A stretch of 64,000 nt of DNA from the NCBI GenBank assembly GCA_029781975.1, contig JAKOVQ010000016.1, positions 434,001 to 498,000 of the forward strand. Direction: 5' to 3'. Both the position numbers and the translations under genes were made by a program. Each line of letters starts with the position of its first letter. Positions within the stretch are counted from its first letter, which is position 1. This DNA is from Acidobacteriota bacterium. GTDB taxonomy: Bacteria; Acidobacteriota; Thermoanaerobaculia; UBA5066. The notes beneath the pieces were generated by a model. That model was given only the letters and a program-made list of their open reading frames with translations. It did no database searches and had not been told where the DNA came from. Of the stretch, positions 3,570-27,680 are shown in pieces.

Positions 3570-3636
3570 GGAGCGGGCTGAGGGGCGGACTGGGGGGCGA
3601 AGGAGGCGCCGCCACCGCCGCGGCGGGCCCGTCGCC

Positions 3637-4803
3637 GTGAGGATCGCCCTCGTCGTCCCCGGCGGCGTCGACCGGAGCGGCCGGGAGAGGGTGATCCCGG
3701 CCCTCCTTTGGCTCGTCGAGCGGCTCGCCCGCCGTCACGACGTCGTCGTCTTCGCCCTGGGGCAGGAGCGGGAGCCGGGGAGCTGGCCGCTCCTCGGCGC
3801 GCGGGTCGTCGACCTCGGTGAGCAGGCGCCTGCGGGGATACCGGGGCTCGGGATCCTCCGGCGCCGCCGGCAGCTCGCGCGGGCGATTCGATCCGAGGGA
3901 CCGTTCGACGTGGTCCACGCCTTCTGGGCGACGCCGTGCGGGTTCCTCGCGACGACTTCTGTCCCGCGGGGGACCCCGGTCGTCGTCTCGCTCGGCGGGG
4001 GAGAGCTCGCGGCGGTCCCTCAGATCGGCTATGGCTGCGGCCTCGTCGGGCGCGAGCGGGTGAAGGTCGCCCTCGCCCTCCGCCGGGCGGCGGCGGTGAC
4101 GGCCGCGAGCCGGCCGATGGTGGAGGCGGCGGCCGCCGCGGGAGTCCGGGCCCGTCTCGTCCCGCTGGGCGTCGAGCCGGAGGGGTTCCTCGAGCAGGCA
4201 CCGCGCGTCGCGGGCGAGCCGCTCCGCCTCCTCCACGTCGGGAGCCTCAACCGCGTCAAGGACCAGGCGACGCTCCTCCGCGCGTTCGCACGGGCCCGGG
4301 AGGACGTCCCGGAGCTCGCCCTCGACGTCGTGGGCGAGGACACGCTCGGCGGGGAGGTCCAGGCGCTGGCCACGACCCTCGGCCTGCGGGACGCCGTCGC
4401 GTTCCACGGCTTCCTCCCGACGGACGGGCTCCGGCCGCTCCTCGCCCGGGCGGACCTCCTCGTCGTCTCGTCCCGGCACGAGGCGGGCCCGGTCGCCCTG
4501 GTCGAGGCCGCCGCCTGCGGCGTCCCGACCGTCGGGACCGCGGTGGGGCACGTGAAGGAAGGGGACCCGGAGCGGTCGATCGCGGTGCCGGTCGGTGACG
4601 CGGTGGCGCTCGCCGGGGCGATCGTCGCTCTGGCGCGCGACCCGGGGCGCCGCCTGCGGATGGGCGAGGCGGCGCGGGCGTGGGCCCGCGCGAACGACGC
4701 CGACGCCACGGCAGGGCGGTTCGAGGAGATCTACCGCGAAACGAGGGGAACGCCGAGGGGCAGCGCGGCCTCGGCCGCGCCGCCCCCCGGCCGGACACCC
4801 TAG
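3637..4803 (+). CDS. Glycosyltransferase family 4 (GT-B)
   Basis: A 388-residue GT-B glycosyltransferase. The N-terminal domain opens MRIALVVPGGVDRSGRERVI. The C-terminal nucleotide-sugar domain has LLHVGSLNRVKDQATLLRAF near residue 200 and the EX7E-type donor site within HEAGPVALVEAAACGVPTVG near residue 290. The family transfers sugars from nucleotide donors to lipid-linked or surface acceptors in the cytoplasm. Its start is the GTG at 3637. It is co-directional with the radical SAM gene. Its TAG stop overlaps the TAG stop of the convergent S9 peptidase in a single CTAG tetranucleotide at 4800-4803. The acceptor and sugar are unknown. Confidence 0.9.
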   Translation: MRIALVVPGGVDRSGRERVIPALLWLVERLARRHDVVVFALGQEREPGSWPLLGARVVDLGEQAPAGIPGLGILRRRRQLARAIRSEGPFDVVHAFWATPCGFLATTSVPRGTPVVVSLGGGELAAVPQIGYGCGLVGRERVKVALALRRAAAVTAASRPMVEAAAAAGVRARLVPLGVEPEGFLEQAPRVAGEPLRLLHVGSLNRVKDQATLLRAFARAREDVPELALDVVGEDTLGGEVQALATTLGLRDAVAFHGFLPTDGLRPLLARADLLVVSSRHEAGPVALVEAAACGVPTVGTAVGHVKEGDPERSIAVPVGDAVALAGAIVALARDPGRRLRMGEAARAWARANDADATAGRFEEIYRETRGTPRGSAASAAPPPGRTP

Positions 4804-7544
4804 GGCTGGAGCTCCGACGTGACCGTCGCGCCCCCCATCTGCGGGACGACGGCCATCGTCTTGACCACCTTGCGCGAATCCGTGGCGACCCAGATCGTCG
4901 TCGAGCCGGCCTCCCCTTCGGCGGAGGTGACCTCGGCCTTCCACGCCTGGAACGTCCCGGCGGCCGTCTTCACCTCTTCCTTCCCCAGCACCTTCACCTG
5001 CTTGAGCGACGCCTTCTGCTTCATCAGGTCGAAGTTGCGGAACGTCGTCGCGTACCCTTCGGCCAGCGGGAGGCGCGCGATCGCGTCCCACGCCCCGGCG
5101 CCGTCGGCGAACAGCTCGCCGCCCAGGTCGGCCGAGACGGGCTTGGGCTCGGCGCCCATCGCCATCGTCCCCGTGACCTTCCCGTCCTGGAAGGCGACGT
5201 CGACCGTGACCGGCCCCTGCTTGACGGAGCGCTTGCGGACGACGAGCGACCCCTTCTCGAGCGTCGTCGTGTCGACCGCGTCGCCCATCGGGAGCTTGGC
5301 GGTGTCGGTCACGACCCAGCTTCCCCCCTCCTCCTTCACCACGCGGGTGACGGAGATCGGGATGCTCCGCTCGCCGGCGACGATCGTCCCTGCGTAGGAG
5401 GAGGTCCCGGCGACGAGGTCGGCCACGGGCTTCGGCGCGCCGACGGAGGCGGCGTCGACCTTCTTCGTCAGGACGACGGTCTTCGGGTCGACCGTGATCT
5501 CCGCGAGGCGTGCCACGACCTCGGGCGTCCCCCCCTCCTGGAAGCGCCCGCCGATGTGCTTCGCCAGGAAGGCCTCGGTCGCGTCCATGAGCGCCATGTT
5601 GTTGACGGGGCGGGCGAAGCCGTGCCCCTCGTCGGGGGCGACGATGTACTCGACCGGGAAGCCCCGGTCGCGCAGGGCGATGACGATCTGCTCGGCCTCG
5701 GCCTTCTTGACGCGCGGGTCGTTGGCCCCCTGCGCCACCAGGAGCGGAGTCTTGATCTTCGCGGCCGAGTTGAGCGGCGACTGCCTCTCGAGCTGCTTCT
5801 TCCCCTCGGGGGTGTTCGGGTTCCCCATCCGCTCGTGGAAGATGATCCGGCCCGCCTCCCAGTAGGGGGGGATCGTCTCGAGGAGCGTCAGGAGGTTCGA
5901 CGGGCCGACGATGTCGACGGCTGCCGCGTAGAGGTCCGGGGTGAAGGCGACGCCGGCGAGCGTCGCGTAGCCGCCGTAGGAGCCGCCCATGATCGCGACC
6001 CGCTTCGGGTCGGCGATCCCCTCTGCGACGAGGTGCTTGACGCCCCAGGTCAGGTCGTCCTGCATCAGGTCGCCCCACTGCTTGTTCCCGGCGTTCAGGA
6101 ACTTCTTCCCGTAGCCCGTCGACCCACGGAAGTTGGGCTGGAGGACGGCGTAGCCGCGGTTGGCGAGGAACTGGGCGTAGTTGTCGAAGCCCCACTCGTC
6201 GCGGGCCCACGGTCCGCCGTGCGGGAAGAGGACCATCGGAAGCCCCTTCGCGGGGATTCCCTTCGGTAGCGTGAGGTAGGCGGGGATCTCGAGGCCGTCG
6301 GACGACTTGTAGCGGATGGGCTTCATCGGCGCCATCGCCTCGCGCGGGATCCGCTCCCGCACCTTGTACTCGAGCGACAGCTTCTTCGTCTTCCGGTCGA
6401 AGAGGTACCGCTCGCCCGGGTCGACGTCGCTCGACGCCGTGACGAGCCAGAGCCGGTCGTCGGCCGTGGCCGAGCCGGGCATGACCTCCTTGCCGGGGAG
6501 CTTCTTCTGGAGGAGCCGGTAGTCGGCCTCGAACGCCTTGTCGCGGAAATAGAGGCGCGTCCTGTCGTCCTGGTACGCGGTCGCGACGAGCTCGTCGCTC
6601 TTCTCGGAGAAGAACGCGTTGCCGAAGTCGACGCGTCCCTTCGGGTCGGACTCGACGACCTCCTCCTTGCCGGTGGCGGGGTCGAAGAGGGTCAACCGGG
6701 TCAGGTCGGGCTCGCCCTTGTTCGTCTCCATGTAGACGCGGACGCCGTCCTTGTGGAACCGGACGGGGCCGCAGCTCTCGAAGACGGTGCAGGAGTAGAC
6801 CTTCGTGAAGGCGTCGGGGTCGACGCGGAGGACCTCGGTGTCGCCGTTGTCGGCGACGCGGACCGCGAGGCGGAGCTTCCCGGTGAGGTCGAAGAGCCAG
6901 CCGGCGATCCGCTCCGTGTTCTTCTTCACGAGCGCCCGCGCCCCGGTGGAGATCGTCACCTTGTAGACGTCGTGCCAGGCGGCGTCGCGGTCGTTCAGGC
7001 CGACGTAGATCGTGTCGGGGTCGCCCTTCGGGACCGCGTAGATCATCGCCCGGACGCCCTTGGCGTCCGTCAGGTTGCGGGCCGGCGGAGCCTCTTTCCC
7101 CTCGGCCGCGGCGGCCGCCGGGTCGACGGCCCAGACGTTGTAGTTCTCGTCCCCGTCGTTGTCCTTGACGAAGAGGACGTACCTGCTGTCGCGGCTCCAG
7201 AAGAAGCCCGGGATCGGGCGCTTCGGCTCGGCCGTCACCAGCCTGGCCTTGGTGTACGGGTCGCCCGTCCTCTTCACCCAGACGTTCCGGGTCTCGTGCC
7301 AGGGCTTGAGGAACGCGATCCACTTGCCGTCAGGGGAGAGCTGGGCTCCGGCGATCTCGGGGTTGCCGAAGAAGAGCTCGCGGTCGAGGAGCGGCGGGAC
7401 GGCGGCCTTCGCGGCCTTCGCAGTCTTCGCGGCCGGCGCCTTGGAGGCGGCAGGCGCGCCGGGGGCGAGGATCGCCGCCGAGAGCGCGAGCGCCATGGTG
7501 AGGGAGAGCCGTCGCAGGAACGGCCGGGGGGCCGGATGCGTCAT
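4800..7544 (-). CDS. S9 family prolyl oligopeptidase-like peptidase, C-terminally extended
   Basis: A 914-residue exported serine peptidase. Residues 1-32 form a signal peptide (RLSLTMALALSAAILAPGAPAA). Residues 50-420 are a beta-propeller of DPD/WSRD-type repeats, and 430-690 are the alpha/beta-hydrolase domain. The catalytic triad can be read directly: Ser522 in GGSYGG, Asp609 in ANDPR and His641 in EGHGF. This matches the acylaminoacyl-peptidase/DPP-like S9 group that cleaves oligopeptides in the periplasm. The last 215 or so residues form an extra all-beta region (SYAGTIVAGERSIPISVTRV to TTIWVATDSRKVVKTMAVVP), reminiscent of DUF3108-type lipid-facing domains and unusual for S9 enzymes. 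The ATG at 7544 has an AAGGAGG ribosome-binding site. It ends in the shared CTAG with the convergent glycosyltransferase. Confidence 0.93.
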   Translation of the reverse strand: MTHPAPRPFLRRLSLTMALALSAAILAPGAPAASKAPAAKTAKAAKAAVPPLLDRELFFGNPEIAGAQLSPDGKWIAFLKPWHETRNVWVKRTGDPYTKARLVTAEPKRPIPGFFWSRDSRYVLFVKDNDGDENYNVWAVDPAAAAAEGKEAPPARNLTDAKGVRAMIYAVPKGDPDTIYVGLNDRDAAWHDVYKVTISTGARALVKKNTERIAGWLFDLTGKLRLAVRVADNGDTEVLRVDPDAFTKVYSCTVFESCGPVRFHKDGVRVYMETNKGEPDLTRLTLFDPATGKEEVVESDPKGRVDFGNAFFSEKSDELVATAYQDDRTRLYFRDKAFEADYRLLQKKLPGKEVMPGSATADDRLWLVTASSDVDPGERYLFDRKTKKLSLEYKVRERIPREAMAPMKPIRYKSSDGLEIPAYLTLPKGIPAKGLPMVLFPHGGPWARDEWGFDNYAQFLANRGYAVLQPNFRGSTGYGKKFLNAGNKQWGDLMQDDLTWGVKHLVAEGIADPKRVAIMGGSYGGYATLAGVAFTPDLYAAAVDIVGPSNLLTLLETIPPYWEAGRIIFHERMGNPNTPEGKKQLERQSPLNSAAKIKTPLLVAQGANDPRVKKAEAEQIVIALRDRGFPVEYIVAPDEGHGFARPVNNMALMDATEAFLAKHIGGRFQEGGTPEVVARLAEITVDPKTVVLTKKVDAASVGAPKPVADLVAGTSSYAGTIVAGERSIPISVTRVVKEEGGSWVVTDTAKLPMGDAVDTTTLEKGSLVVRKRSVKQGPVTVDVAFQDGKVTGTMAMGAEPKPVSADLGGELFADGAGAWDAIARLPLAEGYATTFRNFDLMKQKASLKQVKVLGKEEVKTAAGTFQAWKAEVTSAEGEAGSTTIWVATDSRKVVKTMAVVPQMGGATVTSELQP

Positions 7545-15940: not shown

Positions 15941-16081
15941 GGCGAGGGGAGGTCCCGGGAGGGGGCAGTCCCCCTCGTGAATCGTGGGCGGATCGCCGGC
16001 GGCTCCGCCTCACCAGGCCAGCAGGCGGAGGGAGCGACGCAGAGCAGACCCTCGTGTAGCCTCCGCGCCCGGAGGCGGCCG

Positions 16082-18571
16082 ATGGCTTCTCGGAAGCGAA
16101 CGGGGGCGGAGAGGAAGGCCGGAGCGGGTCTGGCGGGGGCGCGGCGGAGGAGCAGCGCTCCTCGAACGGGGAGCGGAGCCGCTCCGAAGCGCGCTCCGAA
16201 GTCCGTCCCCAAGGTCTCGCGCCATGCGCGCCCCGAGGGATTGACCCCCGAGGAGTGGCAGCGTGAGCTCCGCCGCCAGTTCGGGGCGGCGCAGCCGTTC
16301 GAGATGAAGAACGCCGGGAAGGGCCGGGTCTTCTCGGACTACGTCGTCACGAACCCGGCGAGCCGGAGGACGTATCGGGTCGCGATCCGGGGCGAGGAGC
16401 CGGGCGTGAGCTACTGCTCCTGCCCCGACTTCGCCACGAACCTCCTCGGGACCTGCAAGCACATCGAGTTCGTCCTGGCGTCGATCCGCGGGCGGCGCGG
16501 GGGCCCCCGGGCCCTGGGGGCCGGATTCCGGCCTCCGTACAGCAGCGTCTCGCTGGTCTACGGGGCTCGGCGAAGCGTGAGGCTCCGGCTGGCGGACGGG
16601 GCGCCGAAGGCGCTCCGGAGGCTCGCGTCCCGCCTCTTCGACCCCGACGGAGGGCTGGGCGAGGAGAGGTTCGGGGAGCTCGAGGCGTTCCTGGAAAAGG
16701 CGGCCCGCCTCCCGCACGAGCTGCGCGTCTACGAGGATGCCTCCCGTTTCGTCGCCGCCGTCGAAGGGGAGGCCCGGCGGCGCGACCTCCTCGACCGGGC
16801 GTTCCCGGAGGGGCCCGCGAGCGCCGCCTTCGAGGGACTCCTCCGGACGCCGCTCCCGCTCTACCAGCGGGAGGGCGCGCTCTTCGCCCTCCGGGCCGGC
16901 CGGGCGATCCTGGCCGACGAGATGGGCCTCGGCAAGACCGTCCAGGCGATCGCCGCCGCCGAGATCGGCGCCCGGTACCTGGGGGTCGAGCGCGTCCTCG
17001 TCGTCTGCCCGGCCTCGCTCAAGCACCAGTGGCAGGACGAAGCGGAGCGTTTCTCGACGCGCTCGGTCCAGGTCGTCACCGGCGGAAGGCCGCAGCGGGC
17101 GGCCGCCTACGCCGCCGGCTCCTTCTTCAAGGTGACGGGCTACGACACCCTCCACGACGACCTCGACCTCGTCGGCGGCTGGGCGCCGCAGCTCGTCATC
17201 CTCGACGAGGCGCAGCGAATCAAGAACTGGAGCACGCGTGTCGCCAGGAGCGTCAAGCAGATCTCCTCGCCGCTCGCCCTCGTCCTCACCGGAACCCCGC
17301 TGGAGAACCGGATCGAGGAGCTGATCTCGATCGTCCAGTTCGTCGACCAGCACCGCCTCGGCCCCACCTGGCGCGTCCTCCACGACCACCAGCTGTACGA
17401 GGAGGGGACGACGCGCGTCGTCGGCTATCGCGACCTGGATCGGCTCGGGGCGACCCTGGCGCCCGTCCTGCTGCGCCGGCGGAAGGCCGAGGTCCTCGCG
17501 CAGCTTCCGGAGCGGACCCGGAAGCGCCTCTTCGTCCCGCTGACCGGGGAGCAGCGGGTTCTCCACGAGGAGAACCGCGAGCAGGTCGCGCGGCTCGTCG
17601 CGAGGTGGCGCCGCTTCAAGTTCCTTTCCGACCCGGACCAGAAGCGGCTGACGATCGCCCTCCAGAACATGAGGATGTCGTGCGACGACGTCCACCTCCT
17701 CGACGAGGGGCGGCGCAGCGGCCGGAAGGCGGACGAGGTGGCCGCGCTCCTCGCCGACCTCCTCGCGACGGAGGGGACCAAGGTGGTCGTCTTCAGCCAG
17801 TGGGTGAAGATGCACGAGCTCCTGGCCGAGAAGGTCGAAGCCGCCGGGTGGGGCCACGTCTTCCTGCACGGCGGGGTTCCGTCCGGCGATCGCGGCCCCC
17901 TCGTGAGGAGGTTCCGCGACGATCCGGCCTGCCGCGTCTTCCTCTCGACGGACGCCGGCGGGACGGGACTCAACCTCCAGGCCGCGTCGGTCGTCGTCAA
18001 CGTCGACCTCCCCTGGAACCCGGCGGTCCTCGAGCAGCGGATCGGGCGCGTCCACCGGCTGGGGCAGAGCCGCCCGGTCCAGGTCTTCGACTTCGTGGCC
18101 GAGGATTCGATCGAGCAGGGGATGCTCGACCTCCTCGGCTTCAAGAAGGGGCTCTTCGCGGGCGTCCTCGACCAGGGCGAGCCGGAGGTGCTCCTTGGGG
18201 GAACGCGCCTCGCGCGGTTCATGGACACGGTGGGCGCGGTGGCGGAGCGGATTCCGGACGCGCCGCGCGCCGAGCCGGCCGAGGCGCCCCGGGCCGCCGC
18301 CGCGCCGGCGGCCGTCGCCGGACCCGCCGGCTCCGAGCCGTCCGCCGGCCTGGCGCTGGCCGGGCTGCTCCGGGCCGGGGCCTCGCTCCTCGGGCAGCTC
18401 GCCGCGGCAGCGGACCCGGCCGCGAACGGCGGGGCCGGCGCTCCGGGGGTCCGCTTCGACCGGGACGCGGCGACCGGGAAGGCGGTGCTCCGCATCGAGG
18501 TGCCCGACTCCGAGGCGCTCCTCGGCGCGTTGCAGGCCCTGGCGCGGGCGGTGGGCGGAGAGGGGCGATGA
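16082..18571 (+). CDS. SWIM zinc-finger SNF2-family helicase
   Basis: An 829-residue DNA-dependent ATPase. The N-terminal 60 residues are basic and low-complexity. A SWIM zinc finger (C-x-C then C-x-H: CSCP and CKH) lies at about residues 112-127. The SNF2 ATPase core follows, with ADEMGLGKTVQAIAAAEIGA near 280, VVCPASLKHQW, LDEAQRIKNW (a DEAQ box) and LTGTPLENRIEEL. The helicase C-terminal half has KVVVFSQWVKMHELL, FLSTDAGGTGLNLQAA and QRIGRVHRLGQSRPVQVFDF. The C-terminal 150 residues are an Ala/Pro-rich linker and a short conserved end. Such proteins remodel protein-DNA or RNA polymerase complexes. The ATG at 16082 is chosen because the longer GTG frame (15977) adds an Arg/Ser-rich leader. 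It forms a pair with the TerB-like gene downstream. Confidence 0.92.
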   Translation: MASRKRTGAERKAGAGLAGARRRSSAPRTGSGAAPKRAPKSVPKVSRHARPEGLTPEEWQRELRRQFGAAQPFEMKNAGKGRVFSDYVVTNPASRRTYRVAIRGEEPGVSYCSCPDFATNLLGTCKHIEFVLASIRGRRGGPRALGAGFRPPYSSVSLVYGARRSVRLRLADGAPKALRRLASRLFDPDGGLGEERFGELEAFLEKAARLPHELRVYEDASRFVAAVEGEARRRDLLDRAFPEGPASAAFEGLLRTPLPLYQREGALFALRAGRAILADEMGLGKTVQAIAAAEIGARYLGVERVLVVCPASLKHQWQDEAERFSTRSVQVVTGGRPQRAAAYAAGSFFKVTGYDTLHDDLDLVGGWAPQLVILDEAQRIKNWSTRVARSVKQISSPLALVLTGTPLENRIEELISIVQFVDQHRLGPTWRVLHDHQLYEEGTTRVVGYRDLDRLGATLAPVLLRRRKAEVLAQLPERTRKRLFVPLTGEQRVLHEENREQVARLVARWRRFKFLSDPDQKRLTIALQNMRMSCDDVHLLDEGRRSGRKADEVAALLADLLATEGTKVVVFSQWVKMHELLAEKVEAAGWGHVFLHGGVPSGDRGPLVRRFRDDPACRVFLSTDAGGTGLNLQAASVVVNVDLPWNPAVLEQRIGRVHRLGQSRPVQVFDFVAEDSIEQGMLDLLGFKKGLFAGVLDQGEPEVLLGGTRLARFMDTVGAVAERIPDAPRAEPAEAPRAAAAPAAVAGPAGSEPSAGLALAGLLRAGASLLGQLAAAADPAANGGAGAPGVRFDRDAATGKAVLRIEVPDSEALLGALQALARAVGGEGR

Positions 18572-18625
18572 CGACGCCAGGCCCATCGTCTGGACGAAGC
18601 CCGCAAGGGACGAGACACTCGCGCC

Positions 18626-19090
18626 ATGCTCGACTCCCTCAAGCGGTTCTTCCAGGAACGTCTCGCCGGCCGCTCGACTGACGAGGCGAGCGACCCGGCG
18701 CAGCGTCTCCACCTCACGGCCGCGGTGCTCCTCGTCGAGGTGATGCGCGCCGACTCCGAGGTCAAGGACGAGGAGCGGACGGTCGTCCGCACAGCGCTCC
18801 AGGGGACGTTCGGCCTGTCGCTCGCTGACACCGAGGAGCTGGTCCGCCTCGCCGAAGCCGAGGCGGACGCCGCGACCTCGCTCTACGAGTTCACGAGCCT
18901 CGTCGACAAGGGGTTCTCCCGCGAGGAGAAGAAGCGACTCGTCGAGCTGATGTGGCTCGTCGCCTTCGCCGACGCCGAGAAAGACCCTCTCGAAGAGCAC
19001 CTCATCCGCCGCGTCGCCGACCTCCTCCACGTCCCCCACCCCGACTTCATCGACGCGAAGATCCGGGCGCGGGGAGAGAGCGGGGTGTAG
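18626..19090 (+). CDS. TerB-like protein
   Basis: A 154-residue all-helical cytoplasmic protein matching the TerB/DjlA-N fold. It has LTAAVLLVEVMRADSEVKDEERTVV near residue 35, where the acidic D-x-E-x-x-x-E-E element binds a divalent metal. A symmetric second half reads LVELMWLVAFADAEKDPLEE, with the same acidic pattern. The family was named for tellurite resistance but is widespread and used in stress signalling and envelope surveillance. No ter operon is nearby. The gene starts 54 bp after the SNF2 helicase stop on the same strand and may be cotranscribed with it. Fold assignment is reliable and function is not. Confidence 0.85.
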   Translation: MLDSLKRFFQERLAGRSTDEASDPAQRLHLTAAVLLVEVMRADSEVKDEERTVVRTALQGTFGLSLADTEELVRLAEAEADAATSLYEFTSLVDKGFSREEKKRLVELMWLVAFADAEKDPLEEHLIRRVADLLHVPHPDFIDAKIRARGESGV

Positions 19091-19464: not shown

Positions 19465-21246
19465 ATGAACTCTCCAGACTTGGATCTGCGGCTCGTGCTC
19501 GACGGGACGCCGGCTCTCGTCTGCAGCGGGCGTCCCGACAGCGGCCTCGACTACGCCAACCGGCGCTGGCTCGACGAGGTCGGCGCGTCGGCCGACGCGC
19601 TGGAGGGCTGGGGGTGGACGGCCTTCATCCACCCCGACGACCTGCCGGACCTCCTCCGTTGCTGGCGCGCGTCGATGGCCGGCGGGGAGCCGTCGGTCTC
19701 GGAGGCGCGCGTCCGCCGCGCGGCCGGCGGGTACCGCCGGATGCTGCACCGGGTCCAGCCGCTGCGCGACGAGCACGGCACGGTCGTCCGATGGGTCGGC
19801 TCGAGCCTCGACGTCGAGGAGCAGAAGCGGACGGAAGAGGTCCTCCAGAGGACGGAGCGCGAGCTCCGAACGATCCTCGAGACGATCCCCGCCTTCGTCT
19901 GGACCGCCCGGTCGGACGGCGCCCTCGACTTCATCGCGGGCCGCCTCTTCGCGGAGACGGGTCTGCGCAAGAGCGAGACCCTCCTGTGGGAGTGGGCGAA
20001 CGTGCTCCATCCGGAGGACCGCGAACGCGTGGTGAAGGACTGGCTCGACGCCCTCGCCGCGGGGCGTGCCCCCGATCAGGAGATGCGGGTCCGCGGGGCG
20101 GACGGGACGTATCGATGGTTCCTGACCCGGGCCGTCGCGCTTCGGGACGAGGAGGGGGCGATCCTCCGGTGGTACGGGACGTTCACCGACATCGACGCCC
20201 GCAAGCGAGCCGAGGAGGAGCTGCAGAAGCTCAAGGACCAGCTCCAGAAGGAGAACATCGCCCTCCGGGACGAGGTCAGCCAGACCTCGATGTTCGAGGA
20301 GATCGTCGGCTCCTCGACGCCGCTTCGGCGGGTGCTCGTGCTCGTGAGCAAGGTCGCGAGCACCGATTCGACCGTCCTGATCACCGGCGAGACCGGCACC
20401 GGCAAGGAGCTGATCGCCCGGGCCATTCACAGGAAGTCTCCCCGGGCCTCCCGGCCGTTCGTGTCGGTCAACTGTGGTGCGGTTCCGCCGTCCCTGATCA
20501 CGTCGGAGCTGTTCGGCCACGAGAAGGGCGCGTTCACCGGCGCCCTCCAGCGGCACCTCGGCCGCTTCGAGCTGGCCGAAGGAGGGACCGTCTTCCTCGA
20601 CGAGGTGGGCGAGCTCCCTTCCGAGGCCCAGGTCGCCCTCCTCCGGGTCCTGCAGGAACGGACCCTCGACCGCGTCGGCGGCAGCCGTCCCGTCCCGGTC
20701 GACGTCCGCGTCATCGCCGCGACGAATCGCGACCTCGACAAGGCCATCGCCCAGGGCGCGTTCCGGAGCGACCTCTACTACCGCCTCAGCGTCTTCCCGG
20801 TCCACGTGCCTCCGCTCCGGGATCGCGCCGAGGACGTTCCGCTCCTCGTGGAATACCTCACGCAGCGATACGCCGCGAAGGCGGGAAAGAGGATCACGGA
20901 GGTGAGCCGGAGGACCATGGACCTCCTCCGCTCCTACGACTGGCCGGGGAACGTCCGCGAGCTGCAGAACGTCATCCAGCGCGCGGTGATCCTGAGCGAG
21001 GGGACGCTGGCGGTCGACGAGGCATGGCTCAGCCGGCCGGCGGCCCGGGTCACGGCCGGCGCGCACCGCCTGGGCCGGCCGAGCGGCCGCGAGGAGAAGG
21101 AGTGGATCGAAAGCGCCCTCGCGCTCTCGCGCGGCCGCGTCTCCGGCCCGGACGGCGCGGCGGCCGCGCTCGGCATCCCCCGGTCCACGCTCGAATCGAA
21201 GATCCGCGCGCTGCGCATCGACAAGCATCGATTCAGGTCCGGTTAG
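19465..21246 (+). CDS. PAS-domain sigma-54 dependent activator (bEBP)
   Basis: A 593-residue bacterial enhancer-binding protein. Two PAS/PAC modules (about 10-125 and 130-250) end in DVEEQKRTEEVLQRTERELR and DIDARKRAEEELQKLKDQLQ, and a coiled coil leads into the AAA+ domain at 275-510. The AAA+ domain carries Walker A GETGTGKE (308-315), the sigma-54 contact loop GAFTGA (355-360), Walker B VFLDE (376-380), the arginine-finger region FRSDLYYRL and WPGNVREL. A Fis-type HTH lies at about 548-585. No receiver domain is present, so the PAS pair is the sensor, perhaps for redox, a lipid or a small ligand. The gene is directly followed by a -24/-12 promoter, making the six genes behind it the obvious regulon. 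Confidence 0.95.
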   Translation: MNSPDLDLRLVLDGTPALVCSGRPDSGLDYANRRWLDEVGASADALEGWGWTAFIHPDDLPDLLRCWRASMAGGEPSVSEARVRRAAGGYRRMLHRVQPLRDEHGTVVRWVGSSLDVEEQKRTEEVLQRTERELRTILETIPAFVWTARSDGALDFIAGRLFAETGLRKSETLLWEWANVLHPEDRERVVKDWLDALAAGRAPDQEMRVRGADGTYRWFLTRAVALRDEEGAILRWYGTFTDIDARKRAEEELQKLKDQLQKENIALRDEVSQTSMFEEIVGSSTPLRRVLVLVSKVASTDSTVLITGETGTGKELIARAIHRKSPRASRPFVSVNCGAVPPSLITSELFGHEKGAFTGALQRHLGRFELAEGGTVFLDEVGELPSEAQVALLRVLQERTLDRVGGSRPVPVDVRVIAATNRDLDKAIAQGAFRSDLYYRLSVFPVHVPPLRDRAEDVPLLVEYLTQRYAAKAGKRITEVSRRTMDLLRSYDWPGNVRELQNVIQRAVILSEGTLAVDEAWLSRPAARVTAGAHRLGRPSGREEKEWIESALALSRGRVSGPDGAAAALGIPRSTLESKIRALRIDKHRFRSG

Positions 21247-21342: not shown

Positions 21343-21358
21343 TGGCATCCCGGTTGCC
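21343..21358 (+). promoter_or_regulatory. Sigma-54 (RpoN) -24/-12 promoter
   Basis: TGGCATCCCGGTTGCC matches the consensus TGGCAYR-N4-TTGCW. The invariant GG (21344-21345) and GC (21356-21357) are separated by the obligatory 10 bp. The predicted transcription start is close to 21369, only 3 bp before the ATG of the STAS-like gene. A sigma-54 activator gene ends about 100 bp upstream. Confidence 0.85.
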
Positions 21359-21371
21359 ATAAGGGCAATCG

Positions 21372-21647
21372 ATGGTCCTGAGAATCGAGCCCGCCCCGAA
21401 CGACTCGCCGACGCTCCTCAAGCTCGTCGGGAGGATCGCCTCGCCGGACGTCCAGCAGCTGAAGGCCCTGATCGCGGAGATGCCGAACGCCGTATCCCTC
21501 GACCTCCGGGAGGTGGAGCTCGTCGACCTCGACGCGGTCCGCTTCCTCGCGGCGGTCGAGCGGGGAGGCCTCGAGCTCCGCAACCTTCCGCCGTACGTCC
21601 GCGCCTGGGTCCTCCTGGAGAGGGAGAGGCTCGGAGACTCCGAGTGA
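21372..21647 (+). CDS. STAS-like small protein
   Basis: A 91-residue protein with the beta-alpha outline of a STAS/anti-anti-sigma-like fold: LLKLVGRIASPDVQQLKALI, then VSLDLREVELVDLDAVRFLA, then LELRNLPPYVRAWVLLE. In STAS proteins the segment corresponding to VDLDAVRFL normally carries the regulatory serine as D-S-[ST]-G; here it reads D-L-D-A, so phosphorylation switching is not expected. It is the first gene after the sigma-54 promoter. The predicted RNA start is only a few bases upstream, so it may be translated leaderlessly. There is no ribosome-binding site apart from a weak AAGGG. The role may be a small adaptor. It could also be unproductive, with the operon effectively beginning at the DUF1269 gene. 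Confidence 0.7.
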   Translation: MVLRIEPAPNDSPTLLKLVGRIASPDVQQLKALIAEMPNAVSLDLREVELVDLDAVRFLAAVERGGLELRNLPPYVRAWVLLERERLGDSE

Positions 21648-21685: not shown

Positions 21686-22405
21686 ATGGAACGGATGCTG
21701 GTCGTGGTCTTCGACAACGAGAAGATGGCCTACGAGGGCGAATCGGCCCTCGTGCAGCTGGAGCGCGAGGGCCTCCTGACGATCTACGAGCGAGCGGTGA
21801 TCGTGAAGCACGCGGAGGGCACCGTCAGCCTCAGGCAGGTCGAGCCGGACGGGCCGGTCGGCTCGCTGGCGGGGACGGCCGTCGGGGGCCTCGTCGGGCT
21901 CCTGGGCGGGCCGGTGGGCGCGGCCATCGGCGCGGCGTCGGGCCTCGCGCTCGGCGCGCTCTACGACGTCGACAGCGCCCGCGTCGGCGGGGACTTCCTC
22001 GACGACGTCTCGAGGTCGCTGACGCCGAACAAGGTCGCGGTCGTCGCCGAGGTCGAGGAGGAGTGGACGACCCCCGTCGACACGCGGATGGCGGCGCTCG
22101 GCGGGACCGTGCTCCGCCGCGCGCTCTGGGACGTGCAGAAGTCCGTGCGCGAGGCGGAGATCGCCGCGATGAAGGCGGACCTCAAGCAGCTCAAGAGCGA
22201 GATCTCGCAGGCCGAGGCCGACCGGCGCGCGAAGCTCCAGAAGAGGGTCGATCAGCTCCAGGCGAAGGTGGACGCGCAGCTCGAGAAGGCCAGGCAGCAG
22301 CACGAGGCGCGCGAGCTCCGCCGGAAGGCGAAGAGAGACGCCCTCAAGAAGAACGCCGTCGCCGCCGGCCAGGCCCTCAGGGACCTGGCGCGCACCCCGG
22401 TCTGA
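21686..22405 (+). CDS. DUF1269 glycine-zipper membrane-associated protein
   Basis: A 239-residue protein. Residues 1-60 give the DUF1269 opening MERMLVVVFDNEKMAYEG and LLTIYERAVIVK. Residues 65-95 are a glycine-zipper helix (GTAVGGLVGLLGGPVGAAIG) that would insert in or pack on a membrane. YDVDSARVGGDFLDDVSRSL and KVAVVAEVEEEWTTPVD follow, and the last 90 residues form a highly charged coiled coil (EAEIAAMKADLKQLKSEISQ, KLQKRVDQLQAKVDAQLEKA). The family is common in stress clusters but biochemically uncharacterised. The ATG at 21686 has an AAAGGAGA ribosome-binding site 7 bp away. It sits in the middle of a sigma-54-driven operon with lipid-active enzymes, which supports an envelope function. 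Confidence 0.85.
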   Translation: MERMLVVVFDNEKMAYEGESALVQLEREGLLTIYERAVIVKHAEGTVSLRQVEPDGPVGSLAGTAVGGLVGLLGGPVGAAIGAASGLALGALYDVDSARVGGDFLDDVSRSLTPNKVAVVAEVEEEWTTPVDTRMAALGGTVLRRALWDVQKSVREAEIAAMKADLKQLKSEISQAEADRRAKLQKRVDQLQAKVDAQLEKARQQHEARELRRKAKRDALKKNAVAAGQALRDLARTPV

Positions 22406-22434: not shown

Positions 22435-23010
22435 ATGAGCACGGAAACCCTCTCCCGGGACCTCTCCCGACAGGCCGGCTGGAGCATCTTCATGGGAATC
22501 CTGACGGCGGCCGTCGGTGCCGCCATGATCGTCTACCCGCTCGCGGCCGCCGCCGCGTCCACGGTCTTTCTCGGTGCGGCGCTCCTCGTCGCCGCGTTCG
22601 CGCAGCTGGTCTTCGCGTTCACCTCGGACACCGCCGGCCGGTTCCTCCTCAAGCTCCTGCTCGGCGTCCTCTATGGCGTCGCCGGGCTCGGCCTGATCGC
22701 GCTGCCGGGCATGGGCGTCGTGACCCTCACCGCGCTGCTCGGGGCGATGCTGATCGCCGAGGCCGTCGTCGAGGCGGTCCTCGCCTTCTCGGCTCCCGCG
22801 GGGACCGGTCGCGGCTGGTTCCTCCTCAGCGGCCTCTTCAGCCTGCTCCTCGGCGTCCTCATCATCGCGCAATGGCCGGCCAGCTCGATCTGGGCGATCG
22901 GGACGATGGTCGGCACGAGCGTCCTCTTCAACGGAATCGCGCGCATCGTGACCTCGACCTGGGTCCGCAGCGAAGCGCGCCAGGTCCAGCGGTCCGCCGT
23001 GGCCGCCTGA
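22435..23010 (+). CDS. HdeD/DUF308 family membrane protein
   Basis: A 191-residue integral membrane protein with six hydrophobic segments in three hairpin-like pairs. These include GWSIFMGILTAAVGAAMIVY, STVFLGAALLVAAFAQLVFA, LLLGVLYGVAGLGLIALPGM, TALLGAMLIAEAVVEAVLAF, FLLSGLFSLLLGVLIIAQWP and IWAIGTMVGTSVLFNGIARI. This repeated layout is that of the HdeD acid-resistance/DUF308 family of the inner membrane, whose molecular activity is not known. The ATG at 22435 has a CAGGAGG ribosome-binding site. It lies 29 bp after the DUF1269 gene in the same operon. An acid-stress role is known only for the E. coli member and should not be assumed here. Confidence 0.88.
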   Translation: MSTETLSRDLSRQAGWSIFMGILTAAVGAAMIVYPLAAAAASTVFLGAALLVAAFAQLVFAFTSDTAGRFLLKLLLGVLYGVAGLGLIALPGMGVVTLTALLGAMLIAEAVVEAVLAFSAPAGTGRGWFLLSGLFSLLLGVLIIAQWPASSIWAIGTMVGTSVLFNGIARIVTSTWVRSEARQVQRSAVAA

Positions 23011-23086
23011 CGGCTCCGCCCGGGCGTCCGCGAGAGCCGTCGTGTCGCTCTCGCGGACGCGCCCGGCGGGTCGAGGCAGGAGGAAG

Positions 23087-24031
23087 ATGGCCATGGACGT
23101 CTCGAGCGGCACGCTTCGGATCGCCCACGTCTCCGACGTCCACGTCCCGTCCCGCCTCGGCGCCGAGTGGCGCCGCATGCTCTTCAACAAGCGGATCACG
23201 GGATGGGCGAACGTCCTCCTCCGGCGCGGGCGCGTCCACCGGCGCGCGTTCCTGACGGCCGTGCTCGAGGAGGCCGCCGCCCGTTCCGACCACGTGGTCG
23301 TGACGGGGGACGTCACGAACCTGGCGCACGAGAGCGAGTACCGCGAGGCCCGCCGCCTGCTCGACGAGGTCGCGCGCCGGGTCGACGTGACGGTCGTGCC
23401 CGGGAACCACGACATCTACCTGCCGTCGGTCGGACGCACGCGGCGGTTCCCGCACCACTTCGCCCCGTTCGCCGCGAGCGAGCGCCCCGCGCTCGCCGTG
23501 ACGCTGCCGGCCGGCGACTACCCGCTCGTGAAGCTGCGCGGGCCGGTCGCGATCATCGGCCTTTCGAGCGCCGTCCCGCGCCCCCCGTTCGTGGCGGGCG
23601 GCGTGATCGGACACCAGCAGCTCGCCGCGCTCGAGAGGCTGCTCCGGCTCCCCGAGGTCGCGTCGCGCACGCCCGTCCTCCTCGTCCACCATCCCCCGGT
23701 GGACGGGCGGAGCCGCGTCGCCCGCCTGCGTGACGGCCTGCTCGACGCGGACCGGCTCCGGCGCGCCGTCGATCGCCTCCCCCGCGGGCTGCTCCTCTTC
23801 GGCCACGTCCACGCGAGGTCCCACGTCGCGCTCGGGACGTCGACGGGGACGCTCGACGTCGTCTCCGCGAGCGGAGCGGCGCTCGACCACCCCGATCCTC
23901 GCGTCCGCGCCGGCTTCAACCTCTACGAGGTCGCGGGGGACGGGACGGTGGCGCGCGTCGAGTCGTTCGCTCTCGACGCGTCAGGGACGGGGTTCTCCCG
24001 CGTGCCCATGCCCGTGAGGGCCGTGTCGTGA
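23087..24031 (+). CDS. Calcineurin-like metallophosphoesterase
   Basis: A 314-residue soluble dinuclear metallophosphoesterase with the full motif set in order. These are DVHV (D-x-H) near residue 18, GDVTN, GNHD near 108, HHPP near 207 and GHVHAR near 248. These residues bind two metals (Fe/Mn/Zn) and hydrolyse phosphomono- or diesters. The pattern is of the Icc/CpdA-like 3',5'-cyclic nucleotide phosphodiesterase or UDP-diacylglucosamine hydrolase class, and the substrate cannot be told from sequence. The start at 23087 is chosen for its CAGGAGGA ribosome-binding site; an upstream GTG adds a short Arg-rich leader. Its TGA overlaps the GTG of the phospholipase D gene (GTGA), so the two are translationally coupled, hinting at sequential action on phospholipid head groups. 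Confidence 0.92.
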   Translation: MAMDVSSGTLRIAHVSDVHVPSRLGAEWRRMLFNKRITGWANVLLRRGRVHRRAFLTAVLEEAAARSDHVVVTGDVTNLAHESEYREARRLLDEVARRVDVTVVPGNHDIYLPSVGRTRRFPHHFAPFAASERPALAVTLPAGDYPLVKLRGPVAIIGLSSAVPRPPFVAGGVIGHQQLAALERLLRLPEVASRTPVLLVHHPPVDGRSRVARLRDGLLDADRLRRAVDRLPRGLLLFGHVHARSHVALGTSTGTLDVVSASGAALDHPDPRVRAGFNLYEVAGDGTVARVESFALDASGTGFSRVPMPVRAVS

Positions 24032-26685
24032 GCTACCGGCGGGTCCTCCTGGTCGTCGAGCTCGGGGGCGACGCGGCGCCCGCCGCGGCCGCTCTCCGGA
24101 GGCTCGCGCCCGGGGCCGAGCGGCTGATCGTGGTGGCGCACGCCCCCGGCCGCGACATCGAGCTGCTGTCGCAGGGCGCGAGCGGAGCCCGGAACGCGGC
24201 GGCGTCGGTCGAGGCGCTGCGCGCGGCGACGGCGGGGCTCTCGCCCCGCCCGGAGCTGATGCTCGCCGAGGAGCTCGGCGTCGACGCGCTCGCTGCGCTC
24301 GCGGCCGACGTCGGGGTCGACCTCGTCGCCGCCGGAGGGCTCGGTGCGAGCGCGATTCCGCTCCTCGCCGGGGTGCGCACGCGCCTGACGCTCCCGCTCC
24401 TCTGGGTCGGCGACGCGCCTGCCGCCGGGGGACCGATGCGCGAGATCGTCTGCGCCGCGTTCGGCGCGCGGGCGCGGAGCGCGGTCGCCGCCTTCCTCCG
24501 CGATCACGGGAGCCCCGACGTTCGATGCACGATTCTCGGCCCGAGGGTCCCCGAGGAGCGGCTCTCCGCGGCGCTCGCGGTGGCCGGGATCGCGGCCCCG
24601 GTCGCGTTCGCGTCGCCCGGCGCGACCCGCCTCCCCCCGCCCGACCTCCTGGTCACGCCGCGGCTTCCGGCTCCTCTCCTCGCCCTCTCCTCGCGGCGGG
24701 CTCCCGTCCTCGTCCTTCCGCCTCCGCGCGCGCCTCAGCCTCGCCTGCGCCGGATCGACGCCGCGGATGCCGTCGACCTCGGCGGGCGGCTCCTCGTGAG
24801 GGTCACGTACGAGGCGGGCGTGGGACGCCTCGAGCCGATCCCGGATCAGGAGGTCGCCTTCGTGGCGGGCGGCCGGACGGTCGGGAGGGCCGGGAGCCGG
24901 GACGGTTTCGCGGAGCTCCCCTCCGGAGGCGCGGAGTCGTTCGGCCTGTTCCGCGTCGGCGGGTCCGCGGGCGCCGACCCCGTCGCCGCCGTCGAGCAGC
25001 GGGTCGCGGTCATCCGGCCGGCCGGTCGGCCGCACGTCCTCTTCGACGCGGAGCTGCCGGACGACGATCTCGTGCGCCTCGCGCGGTTCCGTGGCCTCGC
25101 CGGGATCGACGTCCTCGCCGTCCGCCTGCGTCCGGTCCGGAGCTGCGCGTCGATCCGCGCGAGGCTCGCCTCGTTCGGCCTGCCCGGGCGCGTGGCCGAC
25201 GCGAGCGCGGTGCTCGCCGAGGGTGCGGCCCTCGACGTCCCCGCGGAAGCGGATCCGGTCCGGCTGGCGCGCGTCGCGGCCCGAATGCGGCGCGCGGGAG
25301 CGCCGGTCGTGGCCGTGGTCCACGGCGGCGCGCACACGCCCCGCGTCATCGGATTCGCCGTCCTCCGGGCGGACGAAGCGGACGAGGCGGCCGCGGCGGC
25401 GGCGTTCCGACCCGACTCGCCCGTTCCTGCGGCGACGCTCCCGGCGCGGCTCGAGGCCGCGACGGGCGCCGTGACGATCCCCGGAAACCGCGTGGAGGTC
25501 GAGCTCGACAACCCGACGGCCCGGGCGTGGCTCCTCGACGCCCTCGCGCGCGCCGAGCGGCGGATCCACTTCCAGGTCTACATGGCGAAGGAAGACGACG
25601 TCGGCTCCGAGGTGGAGTCCGCGCTCGCCTCGGCGGCAGCGCGAGGCGTCACGGTGCGTGTCGTCGTCGACTCTCTGCACGGCCTCCACGGCTCGCTCGG
25701 CCTGACGAACCCCCTCCTCGAACGCCTCGCAGCGCGCCCGAACGTCGACCTCCGTCTCGCGCGCCCCGTCGCGGGCGTTCCGTTGCTCGAGGACCTGAAG
25801 CAGCGCGACCACCGGAAGGTCGTCGTGGTGGACGGCCGCCTCGCGCTCGTCGGCGGGCGGAACCTCTCGCACGAGTACTACACCGGCTTCGACGAGGTGG
25901 CGCTCGGGCCCGCCTCGCCCTGGCGCGACGTTCCGTGGCTCGACGCCGGGGCGCGCGTGGAAGGCCCGGCGGTCGAGGCGCTCGACCGCTCGTTCCTCGA
26001 CGCCTGGACGGCCGCCGGGGGAGCGCCGTTCGAGGTGGTGCCGCAGGAGCCGGCGGGCGGCGCGGCGGCGCGGGTCGTCGTCCACCACGGCCTTCGCGAC
26101 GCGACGACGCTCGAGACCTACGTCGCGCTCATCGACGCCGCGCGCGCGCACGTCTGGGCCGTGAACGGCTTCCCCCTCCTCCTCGAGGTCCAGCACGCGC
26201 TCCTCCGCGCCCTGACGCGGGGCGTCGCGGTGCGCGTGATCGTCGGGCACACGACGCCGACGCACGGCGAGACCCCGTTCGGCGGGCCCTGGAGCACGGC
26301 ACGGCGGGCCGCGAGCGAGCTCGTCGACTCGCGGCTCGACGCCCTCGTGGCGGCCGGGGCCGAGGTGTACAGGCTCGCGGTCCGCGAGCGGCCGGGGTGG
26401 GCCGAGGGCCTCGGCACGGTGCACCCGCACGTCCACGCGAAGGTCGTGAGCGTGGACGGCCGCGTCTGCTCCATCGGGAGCGCCAACCTCGACGTCACGG
26501 CAGCCTACTGGGAGGACGAGCACCTGCTGGTCGTCGAGGACGAGACGGTCGCCGGCGCGCTGGAGGCGCGTCTCGGGGAGATCGCCGCGGGCTCCGAGCG
26601 GCTCGACCCCGGGGATCCGGGGTGGCGCGAGGCGGCGCGTCGGCGGGCGTGGATGGTCCGCTGGCCGGGCACGCTTTCGGTCTGA
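24028..26685 (+). CDS. Usp-like domains fused to phospholipase D/cardiolipin synthase
   Basis: An 885-residue protein. Residues 1-135 (YRRVLLVVELGGDAAPAAAA, ERLIVVAHAPGR, LLWVGDAP) and roughly 140-240 (REIVCAAFGARARSAVAAFL, APVLVLPP) look like two divergent universal-stress-protein domains. A middle region of about 240 residues is unassigned. The C-terminal 380 residues are a PLD domain pair with HKD signatures HRKVVVVD (His595) and HAKVVSVD (His803), each followed by GGRN or IGSANLD. The class catalyses transfer or hydrolysis of phosphatidyl groups, including cardiolipin synthesis; a secretion signal is absent, so a cytoplasmic-face membrane location is likely. It is coupled by GTGA overlap to the metallophosphoesterase and followed after 11 bp by a lipase. 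The Usp-PLD fusion is unusual. Confidence 0.88.
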   Translation: MSYRRVLLVVELGGDAAPAAAALRRLAPGAERLIVVAHAPGRDIELLSQGASGARNAAASVEALRAATAGLSPRPELMLAEELGVDALAALAADVGVDLVAAGGLGASAIPLLAGVRTRLTLPLLWVGDAPAAGGPMREIVCAAFGARARSAVAAFLRDHGSPDVRCTILGPRVPEERLSAALAVAGIAAPVAFASPGATRLPPPDLLVTPRLPAPLLALSSRRAPVLVLPPPRAPQPRLRRIDAADAVDLGGRLLVRVTYEAGVGRLEPIPDQEVAFVAGGRTVGRAGSRDGFAELPSGGAESFGLFRVGGSAGADPVAAVEQRVAVIRPAGRPHVLFDAELPDDDLVRLARFRGLAGIDVLAVRLRPVRSCASIRARLASFGLPGRVADASAVLAEGAALDVPAEADPVRLARVAARMRRAGAPVVAVVHGGAHTPRVIGFAVLRADEADEAAAAAAFRPDSPVPAATLPARLEAATGAVTIPGNRVEVELDNPTARAWLLDALARAERRIHFQVYMAKEDDVGSEVESALASAAARGVTVRVVVDSLHGLHGSLGLTNPLLERLAARPNVDLRLARPVAGVPLLEDLKQRDHRKVVVVDGRLALVGGRNLSHEYYTGFDEVALGPASPWRDVPWLDAGARVEGPAVEALDRSFLDAWTAAGGAPFEVVPQEPAGGAAARVVVHHGLRDATTLETYVALIDAARAHVWAVNGFPLLLEVQHALLRALTRGVAVRVIVGHTTPTHGETPFGGPWSTARRAASELVDSRLDALVAAGAEVYRLAVRERPGWAEGLGTVHPHVHAKVVSVDGRVCSIGSANLDVTAAYWEDEHLLVVEDETVAGALEARLGEIAAGSERLDPGDPGWREAARRRAWMVRWPGTLSV

Positions 26686-26696
26686 GGAGGGAAGAG

Positions 26697-27680
26697 ATGA
26701 AACCCGAGAGAACCCGCGGGCCGGCCCGTCTGGCGCCGTTTCCCGTCCACGAAGCGCTCGTCGAGCGCCTCCTCGTCGCCCACGCCTCGCCGGAGGCGCC
26801 GCGCGACGAGGTCGTCGCCCACGCCCTCGGCTGCTGCGCGGGGTACGCGTACGCGGACCTCGACACGGTCGCGACGATCGCGAGCCGGGTGGGGCTCGAG
26901 GAGTGCGCGGGGGTGCGGCTGACGCAGATCGTCGACGCGATGCTCGTCTTCTCGACCGCGTATCTGCTGCAGAGCCGCTGCGGACGCGTCGTGATCCTCG
27001 GCTACCGCGGCACGGAGCCGTCGAATCTGGGGAACTGGCTCGGCGACGCGGACGTCGGAGTCGCCTCGATGGCGGTCGGGGGCGAGCGCCTCCGCGTCCC
27101 GGCGGGGTTCCACCGCAACGTGCGGGCGACGCGCTGGGCCGTCCTCGAAGAGCTCGGCGCGGCGCTCGCGGGCCGCTCGCTCTTCGACCCCGCCGAGCGG
27201 GTGGACTTCCCGATGGAGGCGCTCTACGTCACGGGCCACAGCCTCGGCGGGGCGATGGCGGTCCTCTTCGCGCTCTCGATCGCGGAGGCCCCGGAGTGCC
27301 GCGCGATCGCGGAGCGGCTCCGCGCCGTCTACACCTTCGGCCAGCCGCTCACGACGGGGGTGCCGGCCCCGGCCGCCGTAGGAGAGCTCGGCCGGCGCCT
27401 CCACCGCCATCTCCTCCCGGGCGACCCGGTTCCCGCGCTTCCGCCCGCGTCGTGGTGTCGCCTCGGCCACTGCGGCCGGGAGTGGCGCTTCGCGGAGGGA
27501 GGCTGGAGCGAGGCCCCGGCGCCGATCGCGCAGCTGAAGAGCGTGCCGCGCGCTCTCCTCTCCCTCGCCGCGAGGAAGCCGCCTCGCGGGCCCTCCTCGA
27601 TCCGGGATCACGCGCCCGATCGCTACATCGCGGCGCTGCGGCCGGAGGACCGCGTCACCGAGCTCGGCGACCACGTCTGA
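26697..27680 (+). CDS. Class 3 (alpha/beta-hydrolase) lipase
   Basis: A 327-residue protein of the class 3 lipase family. It has the GYRGTEPSNLGNWLGDADV oxyanion region near residue 100, then the nucleophile elbow VTGHSLGGAMAV with Ser182, YTFGQPLTT, HLLPGDPVPALPP carrying the acid Asp, and a final RDHAPDRYIAAL carrying the His. The triad is complete. There is no signal peptide, so it probably acts on membrane or cytoplasmic lipid, or on phospholipid as a phospholipase A-like esterase. A GGGAGGGAAGAG ribosome-binding site precedes the ATG at 26697, 11 bp after the PLD gene. It is the last gene of the sigma-54 operon, followed by a possible terminator at 27712. Confidence 0.9.
   Translation: MKPERTRGPARLAPFPVHEALVERLLVAHASPEAPRDEVVAHALGCCAGYAYADLDTVATIASRVGLEECAGVRLTQIVDAMLVFSTAYLLQSRCGRVVILGYRGTEPSNLGNWLGDADVGVASMAVGGERLRVPAGFHRNVRATRWAVLEELGAALAGRSLFDPAERVDFPMEALYVTGHSLGGAMAVLFALSIAEAPECRAIAERLRAVYTFGQPLTTGVPAPAAVGELGRRLHRHLLPGDPVPALPPASWCRLGHCGREWRFAEGGWSEAPAPIAQLKSVPRALLSLAARKPPRGPSSIRDHAPDRYIAALRPEDRVTELGDHV

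Follow-up and report, generated by a model that had tools for sequence, protein, structure and literature searches.

A tandem Usp, lipin/LNS2-like and phospholipase D fusion protein encoded downstream of a σ54-type promoter in an Acidobacteriota genome

Domain anatomy of the fusion protein

In a 64,000-nucleotide stretch of an Acidobacteriota bacterium genome (contig JAKOVQ010000016.1, positions 434,001 to 498,000; hereafter the window), an open reading frame (ORF) at 24028-26685 (+) encodes a protein that unites two universal stress protein (Usp) folds, a domain with the fold of lipin and LNS2, and a phospholipase D (PLD) pair in one chain. With moderate confidence, we read this protein as a σ54-induced, cytosolic enzyme of the PLD/cardiolipin synthase type that carries a tandem-Usp scaffold without ATP-binding function and a lipin-like regulatory domain that probably binds lipid. 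The gene begins with a GTG codon, encodes 885 amino acids and has a third-position GC content of 93%. A homologue in L003, a locus from the same family, is 80% identical across the full length, and the complete architecture is common to the 26 members of the family alignment on which all counts of invariant residues and ATP motifs given here are based; these members come from genomes labelled Acidobacteriota and from Myxococcota and Pseudomonadota. Since the same architecture is found in 26 relatives, the fusion is no assembly accident. Hydropathy analysis revealed no evident transmembrane helix or signal peptide in the fusion protein, and no description of a Usp-PLD or Usp-cardiolipin-synthase fusion was found in the open-access literature. 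The protein is divided as follows.

24028..26685 (+): Usp-Usp / lipin-LNS2-like / PLD-PLD fusion protein (ORF, homologues and fold matches)
24028..24417 (+): Usp-like domain A, residues 1-130 (model match over residues 1-236; Pfam Usp in 13 of 24 homologues)
24334..24372 (+): decayed version of the Usp ATP loop, GGLGASAIPLLAG, residues 103-115 (a spacing of 8 where the motif has 9, and a final G not followed by S/T)
24436..24723 (+): Usp-like domain B, residues 137-232 (model match; weaker sequence support than domain A)
24742..25413 (+): middle domain, residues 239-462, immunoglobulin (Ig)-like beta-sandwich and capless HAD-like Rossmannoid (folded like Nir2 LNS2 and lipin/Pah)
25480..26667 (+): PLD pair, residues 485-880, similar to cardiolipin synthase, phosphatidylserine synthase and PLD (Pfam, NCBIfam and fold)
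25810..25833 (+): HKD motif 1, HRKVVVVD, residues 595-602 (near-invariant in the family)
26434..26457 (+): HKD motif 2, HAKVVSVD, residues 803-810 (invariant in the family)

The enzymatic part of the protein is the PLD pair. An earlier note made from the DNA sequence had claimed two intact HKD motifs, and both are present, also in divergent members of the family; the sole exception to be named is HWK at the first site of L003. The two HxKx4D motifs that mark the PLD superfamily are thus in place, and Pfam (PLDc_2, E = 9.7e-27) and NCBIfam (bac_cardiolipin, E = 7.5e-27) assign residues 473-858 to the PLD/cardiolipin synthase group, with phospholipid-acting PLDs and phosphatidylserine synthases as the top Foldseek matches. 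The protein shares its two HKD half-sites with ClsA/ClsB-type cardiolipin synthases and a bacterial PLD (7e0m) and, like ClsB, is predicted to be cytosolic and free of transmembrane helices, but differs from these enzymes in its 462-residue front half and reaches only one third of the curated cardiolipin synthase cut-offs (TIGR04265, 94 vs 290 bits; ClsB NF008427, 88 vs 281 bits). From its sequence, it is plausibly a phosphatidyl transferase. A second PLD-family ORF in the same genome (514 amino acids, 33% identity over the PLD region) suggests that the fusion enzyme is probably accessory; PLD-family proteins of the window protein's own relatives are about 33% identical to it.

The earlier note had also proposed two Usp folds within the first 240 residues, to be checked by structure prediction, and an AlphaFold model of residues 1-478 (mean predicted local distance difference test score (pLDDT) of 76) bore this out: residues 1-236 match tandem Usp structures, namely 3loq (Z = 15.2), Rv2623 (Z = 13.8), UspE (Z = 13.0) and the Proteus UspE 4wy2 solved with a UDP-acyl-GlcNAc ligand (Z = 12.4). 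A Pfam scan of the window protein itself gave no Usp match; 13 of 24 homologous N-termini match Usp (PF00582, best E = 3.1e-8), and a search of the PDB with the N-terminal profile placed universal stress proteins first (best E = 0.0013). The arrangement of the two folds is that of UspE, Rv2623 and TTHA0350, from which the fusion family differs by the loss of the ATP motif, by being joined to an enzyme and by its very fast evolution. The C-terminal domains of the cation-chloride cotransporters KCC1 and KCC3 (Z = 12.8) likewise join a Usp-like tandem to a membrane-related effector, although there the effector is a transporter and a lipin-like domain is absent.

The nucleotide-binding role that the earlier note had attached to these folds, including the sensing of cellular energy state, was not supported: the canonical motif G-2x-G-9x-G-[ST], whose survival it had suggested checking, is missing from all 26 members, although nucleotides may, as far as the sequence tells, still be bound in a non-canonical way. 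The closest approach in the window protein, GGLGASAIPLLAG, is one residue short and continues with V, and it is not common to the window protein and its 80% identical relative in L003. Invariant residues in the Usp regions are few (L99, L207, P226 and L228), whereas the PLD and middle domains keep invariant ones. An ATP-binding energy sensor that directly switches the PLD is therefore very improbable given the 0 of 26 count and the near absence of invariant positions, even though the tandem Usp fold is real and a variant ATP motif and ATPase activity have been reported for the tandem protein UspE (PMC4750201). Because the Usp regions evolve fast with almost no invariant residues, a scaffold or docking role would fit them better than a conserved nucleotide site. 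A further alternative is that the Usp pair binds a lipid or acyl ligand, as in UspE, with the middle domain as mere structural support. The match to 4wy2 and the hydrophobic ligand of E. coli UspE, which is related to lipid A precursors (PMC4750201), speak for this alternative, yet we regard it as unlikely, as the Usp region has no conserved pocket residues and the conserved polar residues are located in the middle domain.

This middle domain (residues 239-462), a third domain that separates the Usp pair from the PLD pair, was absent from the earlier note. It was modelled with pLDDT values mostly between 80 and 90 in the prediction of residues 1-478 and matches the C-terminal LNS2 domain of Nir2, solved with phosphatidic acid (PA), with Z scores of 10.8-12.1 over 186-202 residues in two models, which are separate predictions of one and the same sequence; the best match has a Z score of 12.1 over 198 residues with a root-mean-square deviation of 3.4. 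Lipin/Pah phosphatases follow with Z scores of 9.6-10.1 in the two models (Pah2, Z = 9.9). In lipin structures, a capless HAD domain comes after an Ig-like one, and lipin/Pah and the bacterial APP1 (DUF2183) phosphatases share this order with the middle domain (PMC7066176). In the models, the fold of the middle domain is the same as that of LNS2 and lipin, and homology is not claimed.

Six residues of the middle domain are invariant (D340, R366, D391, D403, R412 and R415), and Asp340 is situated where the HAD nucleophile is expected. The second Asp of the DxD motif, however, is replaced by E, Q, H, L, R and others among the members, and the acid/Asn of motif IV, the position of which was placed by model topology, is not conserved. 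The catalytic DxDxT and Mg ligands of lipin/Pah and APP1 are therefore lacking as conserved features, and the profile comparison with APP1 was negative. As lipin depends on its DxDxT site and on a Mg-binding Asn (PMC7066176), the middle domain is, judged by its motifs, probably not a phosphatase. A live phosphatidate phosphatase, which would turn the protein into a fusion enzyme that converts PA to diacylglycerol for the lipase encoded next door, is quite unlikely on this evidence, despite the lipin/Pah fold, the invariant Asp340 and the neighbouring lipase gene. The LNS2 domains of Nir2 and Nir1, which share the Ig and HAD fold, have a degraded DxDxT as well (SIDGS in Nir1) and bind PA after the loss of catalytic residues (PMC12419160). 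The first Asp is the one missing from the Nir domain, which retains the second, while the family described here shows the opposite pattern, and the two, of which the window protein is the bacterial one, have no detected sequence similarity. By its modelled fold, the middle domain has an anionic lipid, for instance PA, as its most likely ligand, and it appears a better candidate than the Usp pair for coupling the enzyme to membrane lipid. A visual alignment of the middle domain to APP1 was appealing, but had no statistical support and was not used as evidence.

A σ54-type promoter and the gene neighbourhood

The gene for the fusion protein lies in a series of genes headed by a σ54 promoter match, with a σ54 activator gene upstream.

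19465..21246 (+): PAS-PAS-AAA+-Fis σ54 activator (conserved in L003)
21343..21357 (+): σ54 -24/-12 promoter, TGGCATCCCGGTTGC (single perfect match of the 64-kb window)
21372..21647 (+): STAS-domain protein, at the head of the operon (domain scan)
21686..22405 (+): DUF1269 glycine-zipper protein with a coiled-coil tail (also upstream of the phosphodiesterase in L096)
22435..23010 (+): HdeD-like membrane protein, DUF308 (conserved in L003)
23042..24031 (+): calcineurin-like class III phosphodiesterase, GpdQ/Rv0805-like (its end shares 4 bases, GTGA, with the PLD start)
26697..27680 (+): class-3 lipase with a GHSLG nucleophile elbow (separated from the PLD gene by 11 bases)

The one perfect σ54 match in the window compares with 0.03 expected and sits between the activator gene and the STAS-DUF1269-HdeD-phosphodiesterase-PLD-lipase series. 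L003 retains the site (4788-4802) and has a second one (2466-2480), and the sites in both loci adjoin genes for PAS-type σ54 activators and sensor kinases. From this arrangement, the PAS-PAS-AAA+-Fis protein likely regulates the operon.

The metal-binding motifs of the phosphodiesterase are intact (DVH, GD, GNHD, HH and GHVH). Its closest solved relatives are GpdQ (2zo9/2dxl, which we take to be this enzyme) and Rv0805, in a weak and short match (E = 1.4e-4), and it differs from these in that its gene appears translationally coupled to a PLD gene. The 4-base overlap (ATGA/GTGA) was found in all nine loci with an adjacent pair (the window, L003, L004, L008 and L092-L096), and, as read from the sequence, the phosphodiesterase gene is translationally coupled to the PLD gene; in L006 it is present but relocated. 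A lipase gene stands beside the fusion gene in six loci (the window, L003, L004, L006, L007 and L009). No obvious signal peptide or transmembrane helix was seen in the phosphodiesterase, the PLD fusion or the lipase of the window. In the divergent myxobacterial clade, mlaD is near the PLD gene in L097, L098, L100 and L104, with mlaE or a gene for an ABC ATPase in the vicinity, and in L100 it lies directly upstream of the homologue. Taken together, the gene context points to phospholipid turnover.

Upstream of the σ54 activator, the window contains a gene for an SNF2 helicase and then one of the TerB family (15977-19090). The DISARM system, suggested by matches of the PLD half to DrmC and by the SNF2 gene (15977-18571), was rejected: the TerB and activator genes intervene, no DrmA or DrmB partner was found among the neighbours scanned, and the DrmC score was 66 bits against a cut-off of 133.

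Proposed function

The analysis shows the domain anatomy (by fold), the state of the motifs, the conserved gene linkage, the translational overlap and the promoter match; what the enzyme acts on, its lipid binding, its regulation and the direction of flux are inferred. In the mechanism that we propose, stress would switch on the PAS-AAA+ activator, upon which σ54 would transcribe the STAS-DUF1269-HdeD-phosphodiesterase-PLD-lipase series. The fusion gene would encode a PLD-superfamily enzyme, soluble and cytosolic, that acts on phospholipid headgroups as either a cardiolipin-synthase-like phosphatidyltransferase or a phospholipase D. Its 462-residue front half would be regulatory, with a tandem Usp devoid of an ATP site followed by the lipin/LNS2-like Ig and HAD domain, which, without canonical phosphatase motifs, would bind an anionic lipid, for example PA, the product of PLD chemistry. 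This front half may dock the PLD pair onto the inner membrane leaflet and tune it to the lipid content, and the coupled phosphodiesterase together with the lipase may process released glycerophospho-headgroups and acyl chains, so that the net outcome would be remodelling or turnover of membrane phospholipids. A more specific version, in which the PLD reads its own product through the built-in lipin-like PA sensor and sets phospholipid composition via the non-ATP Usp tandem as part of a σ54 stress response, is offered only tentatively; if true, this sensor would give bacteria an equivalent of the eukaryotic LNS2 sensor, reached through a different loss of catalytic residues.

Several observations weigh against a σ54-controlled phospholipid enzyme with a lipin-like domain. 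The middle-domain assignment is made from fold alone: hhalign against eight bacterial APP1 phosphatases gave no signal with either a thin or a deep alignment (probability <1%; a control run with the Usp part gave no match either), neither LNS2 (PF08235) nor APP1_cat (PF09949) of Pfam matched the middle-domain profile, and a PDB search with this profile returned nothing significant, neither lipin nor LNS2. A search for LNS2 in the genomes of the relatives found no match, yet control genomes gave none either, which makes this negative uninformative. The strict σ54 pattern was detected at no family locus other than L003 and the window, so the results do not establish σ54 control across the family, and the STAS start codon (21372) lies only 15 bases past the σ54 element, so that the message would have almost no leader. 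The lipase is not conserved across all lineages, and the PLD part has low confidence in the full-length model (mean pLDDT of 62). Finally, DrmC profiles match the PLD half as well (2e-12), and for this reason sequence alone cannot fix the PLD substrate. These profiles, together with a partial match of the phosphodiesterase to PDC-S10, would agree with a nuclease in an anti-phage or nucleic-acid-processing locus. We consider such a nuclease distinctly unlikely, since the profile matches are of superfamily level only and the closest folds are phospholipid PLDs, since the genes scanned include no DrmA/B partners, and since the lipase and mla neighbours indicate lipids. The phospholipid reading draws on the fold neighbours of the PLD pair and on the lipase, phosphodiesterase and mla context.

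Little is understood of how bacteria link stress signalling to the make-up of their phospholipids. Here, one chain combines a stress-protein scaffold with a lipid domain of lipin shape and a phospholipid enzyme, accompanied by a coupled phosphodiesterase and a lipase, and the fusion gene with its linked phosphodiesterase gene has the appearance of an integrated unit for controlling how phospholipids are remodelled during stress. This link is directly testable in culturable hosts, for example Anaeromyxobacter and Luteimonas. The earlier note was partly supported, its observation being confirmed and its interpretation half right, and the anatomy is more interesting than first described.

Distribution of the family

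A profile of the front half found the protein in three of 149 genomes of the window's class, with one copy truncated at a contig edge and a fourth match that was marginal. The class of Anaeromyxobacter was richer, with clear matches in 22 of 147 genomes and a borderline 23rd. Strong matches were obtained in one of 399 genomes of the order of Thiobacillus and in one of 297 of the family of Luteimonas, these being the very genomes that had seeded each search. A plasmid search for full-length relatives returned matches to the PLD half only. The tree of the PLD half contains two supported clades, one scattered over genomes labelled Acidobacteriota, Pseudomonadota and Myxococcota and the other confined to the class of Anaeromyxobacter; a myxobacterial origin of the fusion family with lateral transfer is likely. 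In a metagenome-assembled genome (MAG) labelled Deltaproteobacteria (L009, 639-3405), the homologue is broken across several reading frames, which may reflect an assembly error or a decaying gene. A Thiobacillus MAG (L006) encodes a second, more ordinary PLD-family gene (2759-5503, -) 2.4 kb from the fusion gene.

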